Part shown: piece by piece, positions 1-10,398 of the stretch
Layout: each line of letters opens with the position of its first letter
Position numbering within the stretch: position 1 is the stretch's first letter
Source of the DNA: Bacteroidota bacterium
Lineage (GTDB): Bacteria; Bacteroidota; Bacteroidia; B-17B0; Aurantibacillaceae
DNA: 37,134 nt
Assembly (NCBI GenBank): GCA_013816615.1
Contig: JACDED010000030.1
Span: 1 to 37,134, forward strand
Direction: 5' to 3'
Notes under the pieces: generated by a model
Database searches by the model: none
The model's input: only the letters and a program-made list of their open reading frames with translations
Told to the model about the DNA's origin: nothing
Position numbers and translations under genes: made by a program

Positions 1-969
1 GCCGACCTAACGCCCGTAAGGTTAGGTACAAATGGTGTAACTGCATTAATTAGTATTATGCGCGGTTGCGATAATATGTGCAGCTTTTGTGTAGTGCCAT
101 TTACCAGGGGACGAGAAAGAAGCCGCGACCCTGAAAGTATTGTTGCAGAAGCAAAAGATCTTTTTGAAAAAGGCTACAAAGAAGTTACTTTATTAGGACA
201 GAACGTAGACAGCTATTTATACAGCGGCGGTGGCTTAAAAAAAGAGTTGCTTACTGAAGAACAAAAAAAGGCGGCAACAAATTTTGCTCAGCTGTTAGAA
301 AAAGTTGCTTTGGTTAGTCCTGAATTACGCATTCGTTTTTCTACTTCACATCCAAAAGATATGACGGATGAAGTATTGGAAACAATGGCAAAGTACGAGA
401 ACATTTGCAAATACGTTCACCTACCCGTTCAAAGTGGAAACAGTAAAATTTTAGAAGCTATGAACCGTGGTTATACACGCGAATGGTACTTAAACAGAAT
501 TGATGCGATCAATAGAATTCTGCCGGGATGTGGAATCAGTACAGATATCATTACTGGTTTTTGTGGCGAGACAGAAGAAGATCACGCAGATACTTTAAGC
601 TTATTAAAACAAGTACAATACGATTACGGATTTTTATTTATGTATAGCGAACGTCCGAAAACATTAGCTGAACGTAAATACAAAGATGATGTGCCGGAAG
701 AAATTAAAAGCAGGAGACAAAGCGAGATCGTAGCAATACAACGCGAGAACAGTGCTATTAAAACAAAAGCAGGAGTTGGAAAAGTGCACAAGGTTTTGAT
801 CGAAGGCTTTTCAAAAAAATCAAATGAAATGTTTATGGGAAGAAACACACAAAATACTGTGGTTGTTTTCCCGAAAGAGAATTATAAAAAAGGAGACTAT
901 GTAAATGTGCTGGTTACAACGTGTACGGCATCAACTTTGATTGGTGAGGTTGTAAAGAAGCAGGACTAA
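1..969 (+). CDS. miaB: tRNA-2-methylthio-N6-dimethylallyladenosine synthase MiaB (5' end outside window)
   Basis: Radical-SAM methylthiotransferase that adds the 2-methylthio group to N6-isopentenyl-A37 of tRNAs. The reading frame is open from base 1 and encodes the family segment [20 protein letters not shown], so the Met at base 58 is internal and the true start lies upstream. The radical-SAM cluster CxxxCxxC is encoded at about bases 67-90. It is followed by the [16 protein letters not shown] signature, and by a GQNVDSY motif near base 220. The last 60 or so residues form a TRAM RNA-binding domain (MGRNTQN segment). The N-terminal UPF0004 domain with the second iron-sulfur cluster is missing only because the window starts inside the gene. 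It is the first visible gene of the cluster running to secG. Confidence 0.97.
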
Positions 970-977
970 AGGGACAA

Positions 978-990
978 CAAGATACAAGAC
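978..990 (+). repeat. Left inverted 13-mer flanking the four-helix-bundle gene
   Basis: The sequence CAAGATACAAGAC lies in the 29-nt gap between miaB and the four-helix-bundle gene. It matches the reverse complement of GTCTTGACTCTTG (1388-1400) at 11 of 13 positions. It also matches CAAGACACAAGAC at 9190-9202 in direct orientation at 12 of 13 positions. I infer that these are copies of one dispersed repeat. Confidence 0.5.
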
Positions 991-998
991 TACAAAAT

Positions 999-1379
999 AT
1001 GGTAAAACATAATTTTAAAAAATTAATTATTTGGCAAGACGCAATGACATTGTGCGACTTGATCTATAATTATACAGAGTCTCTTCCTGTTAAAGAAAAA
1101 TATAATTTGATAAATCAACTAGAAAAGTGTGGCGTTTCAATCCCGTCAAATATTGCCGATGGATCGGGAAAGCGAACAAGTAATCATTTTTCTGAATTTT
1201 TAACTACTTCTTTAAGTTCCAGTTACGAAGCGGAAACACAACTTTTAATTTGCCAAAAAAGAAAATATGGCAATGAAGAAGAATTAAACAATTTATTATC
1301 ACAGGTTAATGAATTGCAAAAGAAAATATTCAATTTTAGAGAAACGATTATTAACGGAAAACAAACAATGCTGTCTTGA
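999..1379 (+). CDS. Four-helix-bundle protein, S23 / 23S rRNA intervening-sequence protein family
   Basis: The 126-residue product has the family opening FKKLIIWQDAM, where most relatives read 'FxxLxVWqkAm', and a central SIPSNIADGSGKRTSNHFSEFL segment typical of the family. It is predicted all-helical with no signal peptide or membrane segment. Relatives were first found inside intervening sequences of 23S rRNA genes; others resemble the accessory bAvd protein of diversity-generating retroelements. There is no rRNA, reverse transcriptase or variable repeat here, so neither role can be assigned. The gene interrupts an otherwise standard miaB/sigma-54 activator neighbourhood and is bordered by inverted 13-mers. 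Its stop codon lies within one of them, which suggests it arrived as a small mobile unit. Function is unknown; RNA binding is only a guess from the family. Confidence 0.85.
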   Translation: MVKHNFKKLIIWQDAMTLCDLIYNYTESLPVKEKYNLINQLEKCGVSIPSNIADGSGKRTSNHFSEFLTTSLSSSYEAETQLLICQKRKYGNEEELNNLLSQVNELQKKIFNFRETIINGKQTMLS

Positions 1380-1400
1380 CTCCTGTCGTCTTGACTCTTG
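1373..1400 (-). repeat. Right flanking repeat, two tandem 13-mers
   Basis: GTCTTGACTCCTG (1373-1385) and GTCTTGACTCTTG (1388-1400) are near-identical direct copies two bases apart. Both are inverted relative to the copy at 978-990. The first copy contains the TGA stop of the four-helix-bundle gene. The activator gene starts 10 bases after the second. Confidence 0.5.
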
Positions 1401-1410
1401 AATCTATCAC

Positions 1411-2643
1411 ATGAATACCCAGGATCTAAAACAAAAATTCGGAATAATAGGAAGTAACGCATTGCTTGAAAGAGCTGTGGATATTGCGCGCCAGGTGGCA
1501 CCAACTGATCTTAATGTTGTTATTAATGGCGAGAGCGGAACAGGTAAAGAAGTTTTTCCGCAGATCATTCATCAGAACAGTGCAAGAAAACATGGGCCGT
1601 ATATTGCAGTTAACTGCGGTGCTATACCCGAAGGAACAATTGACAGCGAATTATTCGGACATGAAAAAGGTGCTTTTACCGGCGCAACAGAGGTACGTAA
1701 AGGTTATTTTGAAGTAGCCAACGGTGGCACTATTTTTTTAGATGAAGTTGGTGAGTTACCACTGGCAACGCAGGCAAGATTACTTCGTGTATTAGAAAGC
1801 GGAGAATATATTAAAGTTGGAAGCAGCAAAGTTTTAAAAACAGATGTACGTGTTGTAGCAGCAACAAATATTAATTTTTACCAGGCATTAGAAAAAGAAA
1901 AATTTCGTCCGGATCTTTATTACCGTTTAAACACTGTGCCTATTTATCTTCCGCCATTGCGTGAAAGAAAAGAAGACATTCATTTATTATTCAGAAAATT
2001 TACAAATGATTTTGCGGCAAAATACCGCATGCCTGTAATAAAATTAAATGCTGATGCAGAACAGGTATTGGTAAATTATTTTTGGCCGGGCAATGTTCGT
2101 CAGCTTAAAAATATTGCAGAACAAATTTCTATTATTGAAAAAACCCGTGAAATAAATGCTGAAACCATTTTAAAATATTTACCCCAATACAATTCTAATA
2201 ATGTACCAACCGTTTTAAGAAATGATAATTTTTCTTCGGGAGGTTCTTCATTTGAAAACGCAGATAAAGAAATTATTTTTAAAGTTATGCGCGATACCCG
2301 TGCAGAATTGAATGACCTTAAAAAAGTAGTTTACGATCTGGTTACTGCAGCCAGTGGTAAAGTGAATAAAGATGATGTTCAGATCATGAACAGAATTTAT
2401 AATGGCAACGAATTAAGCAACGATAACAATGGCATGAGCTTTACACCGGTAATTCAATCGGGCAATTCAAACCCACATGTTATTGAAGTGGAGGAAACTT
2501 TATCGTTGCAGGATAAAGAAATTGATATGATCAAAAAAGCGTTGCGTAAACACAAAGGCAAACGTAAATATGCCGCAAAAGAATTAGGCATTAGCGAGAG
2601 AACACTTTACAGAAAAATTAACGAGTACAAAATAGAGGAATAA
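1411..2643 (+). CDS. Sigma-54-dependent transcriptional activator (AAA+, no receiver domain)
   Basis: Enhancer-binding ATPase that remodels RNA polymerase-sigma-54 at -24/-12 promoters. The AAA+ module starts almost at the N-terminus. It has Walker A GESGTGKE at about residues 40-47, the sigma-54-contacting GAFTGA loop at 87-92, Walker B GGTIFLDEVGEL at 105-116, and the sensor region RFRPDLYYRLN. A Fis-type helix-turn-helix ends the protein (about 370-405, KYAAKELGISERTLYRKI). There is no phosphoacceptor receiver, GAF or PAS domain before the ATPase, so input must come from elsewhere or activity is constitutive. In many Bacteroidota this gene lies between miaB and lptE, as here. It ends 2 nt before lptE, implying co-transcription. 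Its target promoters cannot be read from the window. Confidence 0.95.
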   Translation: MNTQDLKQKFGIIGSNALLERAVDIARQVAPTDLNVVINGESGTGKEVFPQIIHQNSARKHGPYIAVNCGAIPEGTIDSELFGHEKGAFTGATEVRKGYFEVANGGTIFLDEVGELPLATQARLLRVLESGEYIKVGSSKVLKTDVRVVAATNINFYQALEKEKFRPDLYYRLNTVPIYLPPLRERKEDIHLLFRKFTNDFAAKYRMPVIKLNADAEQVLVNYFWPGNVRQLKNIAEQISIIEKTREINAETILKYLPQYNSNNVPTVLRNDNFSSGGSSFENADKEIIFKVMRDTRAELNDLKKVVYDLVTAASGKVNKDDVQIMNRIYNGNELSNDNNGMSFTPVIQSGNSNPHVIEVEETLSLQDKEIDMIKKALRKHKGKRKYAAKELGISERTLYRKINEYKIEE

Positions 2644-8507: not shown

Positions 8508-9173
8508 ATGCTGGCATTAATAAAAGCTGTAATATTTGACATGGATGGGGTGATCATTGATAGTGAGCCTTTATGGGAAAGAGCCATGGTAAAGGGTTTT
8601 AAGCAATTTGGCATGCCTGTAAGTGCAGAAGATTGCCGTTTAACCATGGGCCGCCGGATAAACGAAGTGGTAGATATGTGGGTAAAACACCATAATGTGA
8701 CCAAATTTACCAGCGCCGAAATTGAGCTGGCCATTATGGATAATTTAATTGAATTTATAGATACCGAAGGTAAAGCTATTGAAGGCGTTTTAGACCTGTT
8801 TGAATTTTGCAAAGAGAAAGATCTTAAAATTGGTTTGGCAACCTCATCTTCTGAAAGATTGATGAATACAGTATTACATAAGCTTCATTTAAAAAATGAT
8901 TTTGATTCAACCGTTTCTGCTGAGCATTTAAAATACGGTAAGCCTCATCCTGAAGTTTTTTTGGTATGCGCTGCAAACATTGGTGTTTTACCGGAAGAAT
9001 GTATGGTCATTGAAGATTCGGTAAATGGTGCCATTGCAGCCAAAGCAGCACGTATGCAATTAACCGTTGTGCCTGATCCGGGAACAAAGAATCCTGAAAA
9101 ATTTGTTATTGCCGATCATACACTTCCAAATATGGCTGCTGTATTAACATTATTTAAATCGCTCCTCAGGTGA
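8508..9173 (+). CDS. HAD-superfamily hydrolase, 2-deoxyglucose-6-phosphatase (HxpB/YniC) type
   Basis: Cytosolic phosphatase of the beta-phosphoglucomutase-like HAD subgroup. Motif I is FDMDGVIID, with nucleophile Asp11 and acid/base Asp13. A helical cap domain follows (SEPLWERAMVKGF). Motif II is the LATSSSE segment, motif III lies near KYGKPHPEVF, and motif IV is VIEDSVNGAIAAKAA. The 221-residue length fits. The closest characterised relatives dephosphorylate hexose phosphates such as 2-deoxyglucose-6-phosphate. The true substrate here is uncertain, and a phosphoglucomutase cannot be excluded without alignment. Confidence 0.88.
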   Translation: MLALIKAVIFDMDGVIIDSEPLWERAMVKGFKQFGMPVSAEDCRLTMGRRINEVVDMWVKHHNVTKFTSAEIELAIMDNLIEFIDTEGKAIEGVLDLFEFCKEKDLKIGLATSSSERLMNTVLHKLHLKNDFDSTVSAEHLKYGKPHPEVFLVCAANIGVLPEECMVIEDSVNGAIAAKAARMQLTVVPDPGTKNPEKFVIADHTLPNMAAVLTLFKSLLR

Positions 9174-9189
9174 CAAATGACGCAGGATG

Positions 9190-9250
9190 CAAGACACAAG
9201 ACTAAAACTTGCGCCTTTTCAACCTTTAAACTTTTAAACTTTCTAACTTA
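9190..9250 (+). repeat. Solo 13-mer CAAGACACAAGAC followed by TTTTAAAC-like tandem repeats
   Basis: CAAGACACAAGAC (9190-9202) matches the 13-mer at 978-990 at 12 of 13 positions, but here there is no accompanying gene. From 9216 to 9247 follow four imperfect 8-nt units (TTTTCAAC, CTTTAAAC, TTTTAAAC, TTTCTAAC). Together they fill most of the gap before tgt. Confidence 0.5.
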
Positions 9251-9267: not shown

Positions 9268-10398
9268 TTGAAATTTACACTCTCACATACTGATAAAAAT
9301 TCTAAAGCCCGTGTTGGTATTTTAGAAACCGATCATGGCCCAATTGAAACGCCAATTTTTATGCCTGTTGGCACAGCCGGAACCGTTAAGGCCGTTCATC
9401 AACGTGAATTGAAAGAAGATATTAAAGCCGAAATTATTTTAGGAAATACCTATCACCTGTATCTTCGTCCGGGATTGAACGTAATTGAAGGTGCAGGCGG
9501 CTTACACAAATTTAATGGCTGGGATAAACCCATTTTAACGGATAGCGGCGGTTACCAGATCTTTTCATTGGCCAACCAACGTAAGCTAACCGAAGAAGGT
9601 GCTACTTTTAAAAGTCATATTGACGGTAGCAAACATTTTTTTTCGCCTGAAAGCGTAATGGATATTCAACGCACCATTGGCGCTGATATTATTATGGCTT
9701 TTGATGAGTGCACACCTTACCCTTGCGATATTAAATATGCCAAAAATTCTTTAGGCTTAACCCACCGTTGGTTAGACCGTTGTATTACACGTTTTAATGA
9801 AACCGAACCAAAGTACGGTTACACACAAGCTTTATTCCCAATTGTGCAAGGCAGTACGTATAAAGACTTAAGAATTGAGTCGGCTGAATTTATTGCTTCT
9901 AAAAATTGTTTTGGAAATGCCATTGGCGGTTTAAGTGTTGGTGAACCAGCTGAAGAAATGTATGCCATGACGGAAGTAGTAACAAACATTTTACCAAAAG
10001 ATAAACCGCGTTATTTAATGGGTGTTGGTACGCCTGTAAATATTTTAGAATGCATTGCTTTAGGTATTGATATGTTTGATTGTGTGTTGCCAACCCGCAA
10101 CGCACGTCACGGTTTATTGTTCACCGAAAAAGGTATCATCAATATTAAAAATGAAAAATGGAAAGCGGATTACTCTGTTTTGGATGAGGATGGAACAACA
10201 TTTGTAGATAAAGCTTATACAAAGGCATACTTAAGGCATTTGGTGCATTGCGAAGAAATGTTAGGAGCACAAATTGCAAGCATACATAATTTGGGTTTTT
10301 ATTTGCGCTTGGTAAAAGAAGCCCGTGCCCGTATTATTGACGGTTCTTTTACGGAATGGAAAAATAAAATGGTTATTCAATTAGCACAACGTTTGTAA
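9268..10398 (+). CDS. tgt: tRNA-guanine transglycosylase (Tgt), Bacteroidota type without zinc cysteines
   Basis: Exchanges G34 for preQ1 in GUN-anticodon tRNAs during queuosine synthesis. The 376-residue TIM-barrel protein has ETPIFMPVGT, TDSGGYQIFS (Asp92), FPIVQG, MGVGTPVNIL and the nucleophile segment MFDCVLPTRNAR (Asp271). The zinc-site cysteines of the E. coli enzyme (C302, C304, C307) align here to Gly309, Thr311 and Asp314; only the histidine (His340, in IHNL) remains. Everything around the site aligns without gaps. The start is TTG at 9268, since the next Met is 31 residues in, inside conserved sequence. The permease gene starts directly after its stop. Confidence 0.95.
   Translation: MKFTLSHTDKNSKARVGILETDHGPIETPIFMPVGTAGTVKAVHQRELKEDIKAEIILGNTYHLYLRPGLNVIEGAGGLHKFNGWDKPILTDSGGYQIFSLANQRKLTEEGATFKSHIDGSKHFFSPESVMDIQRTIGADIIMAFDECTPYPCDIKYAKNSLGLTHRWLDRCITRFNETEPKYGYTQALFPIVQGSTYKDLRIESAEFIASKNCFGNAIGGLSVGEPAEEMYAMTEVVTNILPKDKPRYLMGVGTPVNILECIALGIDMFDCVLPTRNARHGLLFTEKGIINIKNEKWKADYSVLDEDGTTFVDKAYTKAYLRHLVHCEEMLGAQIASIHNLGFYLRLVKEARARIIDGSFTEWKNKMVIQLAQRL

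Follow-up and report, generated by a model that had tools for sequence, protein, structure and literature searches.

S23-family genes flanked by inverted heptamer arms whose words differ from locus to locus

Short forms of the rRNA intervening sequence (IVS) exist that lack an open reading frame (ORF). Other IVSs carry an ORF of the S23 protein family, for which PMC4990558 gives no known function; in the Coxiella 23S rRNA IVS, as described there, the ends are complementary, RNase III excises the element, and tandem heptamers of GACAGAT precede the S23 ORF (PMC4990558). Here we describe an S23 gene in a window of 37,134 nucleotides, the whole stretch of Bacteroidota DNA that was analysed. This gene sits in an operon, outside rRNA, between an upstream gene that we take to be miaB, in agreement with the first-pass annotation, and a downstream gene that is presumably a sigma-54-type activator. 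The features of the locus are as follows:

1..969, + strand: miaB (tRNA methylthiotransferase; presumed), 3' part, upstream operon neighbour (ORF)
976..998, + strand: left arm, a degenerate 7-nt array CAAGATA CAAGACT ACAAAAT, abutting the S23 start codon (Tandem Repeats Finder period 7; pairing with the right arm)
999..1379, + strand: S23 / 23S rRNA-intervening-sequence-protein family gene, four-helix bundle, 126 aa (PF05635, TIGR02436, 2gsc)
1372..1405, + strand: right arm, an inverted degenerate 7-nt array GTCTTGA CTCCTGT CGTCTTGA CTCTTGA, starting within the gene's last codons (Tandem Repeats Finder period 7; reverse complement matches the left arm)
1411..2643, + strand: sigma-54-type transcription activator (presumed), downstream operon neighbour (ORF, GESGTGK motif)

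Profile searches place the window protein in the S23 / 23S_rRNA_IVP family above both curated cut-offs (PF05635, 109.9 bits against 33.8; TIGR02436, 98.6 bits against 24), which bears out the earlier call of a four-helix-bundle S23 gene between miaB and the activator. At E 0.001 the PDB contains a single sequence relative, 2gsc (XCC0516; E 1e-17). The gene is separated from miaB by 29 nt and from the activator by 31 nt, and no Rfam family matches positions 900-1500 at E <= 1. Five motifs of 23S rRNA were found at none of 119 S23 loci by exact matching, a crude search of flanks of about 1-2 kb. Between the arms S23 is the only ORF of at least 60 aa; an antisense frame at 1223-1504 overlaps it and lay outside the profile search, and within this scope no transposase gene belonging to the element was seen. 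A minimal unit of a protein gene with inverted terminal repeats and no visible transposase, as the first-pass annotation had proposed, is therefore what we find in the window, and it recurs at most of the S23 genes examined.

The arms are built from inverted, degenerate 7-nt words, CAAGANN on the left and NNTCTTG on the right of the gene. The inverted 13-mers noted earlier are all present and flank the gene, each occurring once in the window (CAAGATACAAGAC at 978, GTCTTGACTCCTG at 1373 and GTCTTGACTCTTG at 1388), and the stop codon TGA (1377-1379) falls within the first right-hand copy, as had been observed; however, the right-hand copies are only near-inverted, matching at 10/13 and 11/13 positions. 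All three prove to be stretches of longer period-7 arrays. With the threshold of Tandem Repeats Finder lowered to 30, barely below the arm scores, the window yields 22 rows, three of them with period 7; the left flank is called at 977-999 (unit ACAAGAT, score 30) and the right at 1374-1405 (unit TCTTGAC, score 34). The window thus shows, at low scores on both flanks, the tandem 7-nt units of the STRR type of repeat. Hand-chosen arm segments form a duplex of -15.9 kcal/mol, which is equalled by one of 2000 single-base shuffles. In the predicted RNA fold positions 978-990 pair with 1388-1400 and close the ORF (z -2.6), and the DNA fold contains identical pairs (z -1.5). Complementary ends around an ORF, as in an IVS, are accordingly seen in the window through the duplex and the folds, and statistically across many loci. 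Most members at the miaB site in related genomes have CAAGANN-like words, and in both G000 and G031 the left arm there also contains AAAGGGAC; the exception is L030, which has AAGGGAC / GTCCCTT on its two sides.

Five S23 genes are present in this genome, the window's and four more. By eye, all five are sense-oriented in operons, at sites that we take to be sdhA/sdhB, paaB/paaC, miaB/activator, upstream of parE, and nuoD/nuoE, and each lies between inverted words of its own; the gene before parE, for example, has GTTTCTT-type words before it and AAGAAAC-type words after it. The words differ at all five copies and none of the four other genes carries the window's 13-mers, so that the idea of these 13-mers as a shared terminal repeat falls. 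Nor are words from different S23 sites within one genome more alike (10.57) than words from different genomes (10.48; 1217 of 2000 permutations as high), and hence no shared sequence-specific recognition of the ends is visible. Terminal repeats common to a genome's copies, the mark of a MITE or transposon, are absent from these five copies. In a test of 34 genus loci the gene's own right arm ranked first for three of the five (L001, L004 and L005). For the window's left arm (L003) three of the 33 other genus right arms match better than its own, and for the paaB/paaC gene (L002) nine foreign arms do. No S23 gene was found in 14 named control genomes.

We studied 94 of 115 S23 places in the genus, together with a multi-phylum sample made up of the best 80 of 574 related stretches and 5 of 33 plasmid records. 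For the arm tests 78 of these 85 loci were kept; the seven left out had a short called CDS or a short flank, and include the sole archaeal contig (L111), whose arms were observed by eye only. The same layout is found in Bacteroidota, Acidobacteria, Planctomycetes, Cyanobacteria, Clostridia, candidate phyla and more. Own-arm matching scored 531 in the 34 genus loci and 1472 in the 78 multi-phylum loci, against maxima of 414 and 870 over 100,000 permutations each, and the own right arm ranked first at 43 of the 78. When the own pair of each locus was set against as many as 60 random partners, p<=0.05 was reached by inverted arms at 64 of 94 genus loci, which are related to each other and give non-independent counts, and at 55 of 78 multi-phylum loci; the corresponding figure for ordinary small genes of one genus genome was 12 of 104, with about five expected. 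About a third of S23 loci are without significant inverted arms. Direct arms alone were significant at 2 of 94 and 5 of 78 loci, respectively, and at five multi-phylum loci (L066, L074, L045, L077 and L106) the same-word arms are direct instead of inverted.

Self-match peaks at lags 7, 14 and 21 over many S23 loci, and at lag 7 it is 0.37-0.43 near S23 compared with 0.26 some 600-800 nt away. By set, the lag-7 value is 0.366 and 0.377 for S23, 0.299 for GxxExxY genes, 0.282 for DUF559 genes and 0.301 for small control genes, which show no lag-7 signal (0.295 at lag 5). The left arm exceeds the right in purine content at 69 of 81 multi-phylum loci and at 65 of the 94 genus loci, a richness that may serve translation initiation. 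Of the 94 genus copies, 90 are sense within co-directional gene pairs, compared with 50 of the 94 small control genes that have near neighbours; the phyla sample has 53 sense and 10 antisense copies (four short loci left out, and eight without near neighbours set apart), against a one-genome background of 283 and 55. Although the genus copies exceed their controls, the phyla sample is no stronger than background, and we rejected sense orientation as proof of co-transcription. The inverted-heptamer layout with locus-specific words recurs over many phyla, and it is perhaps a widespread, unrecognised kind of genetic element; a literature search of titles and abstract openings, with subscription papers and preprints outside its scope, returned no description of operon-borne S23 genes enclosed by inverted heptamer arms among the matches listed.

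Two other gene families of the genus were used for comparison: GxxExxY (PF13366; 27 of 30 fetched loci tested) and stand-alone DUF559 (PF04480; 13 of 30, most other DUF559 matches lying in long ORFs or being partial). By eye both have inverted arms of other word styles, with no 7-nt signal. Inverted arms reached p<=0.05 in 15/27 GxxExxY loci and in 3/13 DUF559 loci, the latter test being weak because words common to the loci raise the cross-locus background. Many of the GxxExxY loci (L150-L179) have inverted arms of the recurring words ACGCTGATGACGC, CCACTAAGGCACTAAG, AACCACATAG and CGCAGAGACGC. Several of the DUF559 genes (L189-L197 and L204-L207) lie between a CCCCCTTTGAAAAAGGGGGTTAGGGGGATT-type arm and its inverse, each arm being hairpin-like in itself.

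Heptamer arrays also occur where there is no S23 gene. At 9180-9249 of the window a CAAGACACAAGACT array and a CCTTTAAACTTTTAAACTTTCTAACTT array, of the same word as the window's S23 arms, stand with no gene between them in the gap between a presumably HAD-like gene (8508-9173) and a presumably tgt-like gene at 9361; this looks like a gene-less or eroded S23-type element. In G001 (675-679 kb; L300-L339) arrays without S23 are found in several spacers of an apparent nuo operon, and over 800 kb of that genome the windows above the lag threshold number 18 at lag 7, 14 at lag 6, 4 at lag 8 and 20 at lag 9. On cyanobacterial plasmids we observed one S23 gene with heptamer arms inside a type I-D cas operon, sense, between cas6 and cas4 (L115), and another, antisense, between the genes for the beta and alpha subunits of ribonucleotide reductase (L117).

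The occupancy of individual junctions was followed in relatives of the window's genome. MiaB was matched in 39 of 40 genus genomes and the activator was located through its GESGTGK motif; 30 of the 39 miaB gaps were read by script and by eye. An intact S23 gene with arms is present in just 10 of these, which confirms that the gene is missing at this junction in close relatives, the empty-site check that the first-pass annotation had put forward. One gap holds a broken S23 gene, two an apparent gene 3' end with the right arm only, one both arms without a gene, and three gene-less hairpins made of other words. Nine gaps are 43 nt or shorter (the 0 nt of G022 being a possible script boundary error) and one is 53 nt. 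The remainder are one pair with an array, one other gene and one unclear case; the pair, in G026 (L149), is one that we take from its sequence to be PIN-domain toxin-antitoxin-like, with a CTTGCTTCGTCAAGTCTTG array behind it. Of 30 sdhA/sdhB gaps read among the 40 genomes, five hold S23, three clearly and two possibly hold gene-less heptamer hairpins, 12 are 13 nt or shorter, and eight are other short spacers. Junctions that are filled in some relatives are thus, in others, cleanly empty, reduced to remnants or marked by a gene-less hairpin, and the element acts as a removable spacer insert.

A tree of 94 genus S23 genes from 33 sites (32 groups once L030 was placed by hand) requires 31 site changes for 32 groups, the minimum possible, which indicates that S23 genes mostly stay in place; the tree was a quick one built on few columns, and 37 of its 91 forks are unresolved. 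On this ground we rejected recent and frequent transposition within the genus. There are departures from simple inheritance, in that the S23 genes at sdhAB, siteG and siteH are not single clades and one gene of the miaB clade (L262) is located at another site. The reading of the first-pass annotation is supported in its layout and in the absence of the gene from this junction in close relatives, whereas recent mobility of S23 genes is weakly supported. Over 111 same-site pairs, many with saturated dS, the median dN/dS is 0.21 and the highest 0.77; in the nine nearest pairs it is 0.02-0.09. The S23 protein is under purifying selection and is inherited mostly in place.

If words are not shared, the question is how the two arms of a locus stay matched. 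Across 68 loci, own arms match better than arms from the same site in other species (0 of 100,000 permutations as good). The excess persists in 57 loci, a set from which several-clade sites and rows were removed and L252, L265, siteG and siteH were excluded (926, where 100,000 permutations averaged 818 and peaked at 911). The signal comes chiefly from two sites, siteA (1 of 100,000 permutations) and parE (1189), and was non-significant at sdhAB (48,936), siteE (27,920), siteF (84,561) and the window's own miaB site (38,887). Among loci with an arm score of at least 13 (66 genus and 53 multi-phylum), cross-arm identity over about 32 nt is 0.80 and 0.83, whereas adjacent words of the same arm reach 0.68 and 0.75; the cross-arm value is the higher of the two in 58/66 and 40/53 loci. 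Such an excess is what block copying predicts, although the choice of the best diagonal somewhat favours it. The match of an arm to its own partner extends through several words in order and is closer than the likeness of adjacent words.

Selection on an RNA stem would leave a different trace, since G-U mismatches on the transcribed strand should then exceed A-C mismatches. In loci with an arm score of at least 13 (74 genus and 60 multi-phylum) sense and antisense counts were 100 and 108 in the genus and 73 and 81 in the phyla, or 173 and 189 in total. In mismatched cross-pairs the counts were 406 v 342 and 216 v 203, and no wobble bias was seen in the arms of GxxExxY (30 v 32) or DUF559 (5 v 11). 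By contrast, the acceptor stems of 45 tRNAs, our positive control, gave 28 v 2 among 315 pairs. An RNA stem kept by selection was rejected on this comparison. Taken together, the unshared words, the better match to the own partner than to orthologous arms, and the lack of G-U bias argue against both trans-acting transposition and a selected RNA stem.

We favour, at somewhat less than even confidence, a reading in which the two arms of an S23 element serve as templates for each other's rewriting, in cis and as DNA, around a selected S23 gene. Arms that are single-stranded at replication would fold back on one another, and the polymerase could switch template between them and carry a block of words across; slippage of 7-nt units would alter the word count. 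The word of a locus could in this way turn over on both sides yet remain matched. The S23 protein would be the selected part and might, at a guess, bind the foldback or the transcript and make the arrangement tolerable or useful. Template switching is described in other systems as homogenising inverted-repeat arms and creating hairpins (PMC7202029, PMC8604942, PMC8794818). The cis rewriting of S23 arms has its difficulties: the roughly 400 nt between the arms are, we take it, far for a template switch, template switching alone gives no account of why S23 genes in particular occupy such arms, and coupling is non-significant at the miaB site.

The element might instead be the operon counterpart of the 23S rRNA IVS, its arms pairing in the polycistronic mRNA, RNase III cutting the stem and the S23 message being released or degraded, with selection on the RNA stem keeping the arms complementary. 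The shared protein family, the Coxiella IVS with its terminal complementarity, RNase III excision and heptamers before the S23 ORF (PMC4990558), the arm-to-arm RNA fold of the window and the sense orientation of nearly all genus copies speak for this account. We consider it unlikely all the same, given the missing G-U excess on the sense strand that tRNA stems display so clearly, the direct arms at some loci, and the antisense position, within co-directional pairs, of 10 among the 73 multi-phylum copies whose neighbours were called.

A non-autonomous transposon or relative of MITEs, in which the arms are terminal repeats for a trans-acting transposase and S23 is cargo, would explain why a junction can be cleanly empty in one relative and hold a gene-less pair of arms in another, as well as the displaced miaB-clade gene, and the scattered clades at sdhAB, siteG and siteH may reflect repeated entry. 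Against it, arm sequences are not common to a genome's S23 sites, site changes on the quick tree are at their minimum, and comparison of empty with filled sdhA/sdhB sites by eye reveals no obvious target duplication, the spacers being too diverged; we hold it to be quite improbable. The most ordinary account, which we disfavour and rate the least probable, is that slippage commonly leaves heptamer arrays behind as debris in operon spacers, with S23 a host gene among them and arm matching a product of base composition or terminator-like hairpins. It can point to S23-free arrays such as the 18 lag-7 windows in 800 kb of one genus genome, and in most prokaryote genomes, as PMC4679880 states, no long simple repeats are more common than heptamers. 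Ordinary small genes, though, have no lag-7 signal and few of them have inverted arms, and the arm matching is locus-specific, beyond what composition gives.

On the reading of arms rewritten in cis, a wider and more doubtful proposal can be made. S23 elements would be a bacteria-wide, perhaps also archaeal, class without fixed end sequence, in which heptamer arms are mutually rewritten in cis and what the S23 protein recognises is the structure of the foldback, not a sequence; the rRNA IVS would be the special case within rRNA, solo heptamer arrays (STRRs and others) the gene-less remains, and GxxExxY and DUF559 parallel classes with other word styles. The layout rule at most operon copies examined gives a concrete handle on S23 function and on the origin of the rRNA IVS. 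It would moreover provide a gene for scattered heptamer families, such as the STRRs of cyanobacteria and the heptamers of Coxiella, and be a natural case of inverted-repeat arms that stay matched although their sequence is not conserved.

Among known systems, the ORF-less rRNA IVS forms resemble the gene-less hairpins at S23 junctions. The 23S rRNA IVSs with an S23 ORF (Leptospira, Coxiella) described in PMC4990558 share with the window element the protein family and complementary ends around the ORF, and the Coxiella heptamers before the ORF resemble the window arms. The window element differs in lying in an operon spacer and not in rRNA, the location that defines an IVS; the arm mismatches here are without strand bias, and the genus ORFs are under purifying selection, whereas PMC4990558 describes reductive evolution for the IVS. 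A more distant relative is Avd of diversity-generating retroelements, whose model is matched by an sdhAB-site S23 protein (L009) at 34 bits, below the cut-off of 80; the window protein does not reach E 0.001 with it. The repeat unit of cyanobacterial STRRs is 7 nt, and the cyanobacterial S23 copies L115-L117 have heptamer arms. Like the arms here, STRRs are short tandem spacer words able to form hairpins, and PMC2670836 describes them as standing alone, without inverted arrays around an S23 gene. The TAACTGA heptamers of Beggiatoaceae likewise form 7-nt intergenic arrays before start codons; as presented in PMC4679880 they are a single fixed word, nearly all direct, with S23 unmentioned. Finally, MITEs and foldback elements have inverted ends and gene-less copies, as do the S23 elements, whose arm ends, in contrast, vary in sequence from locus to locus.
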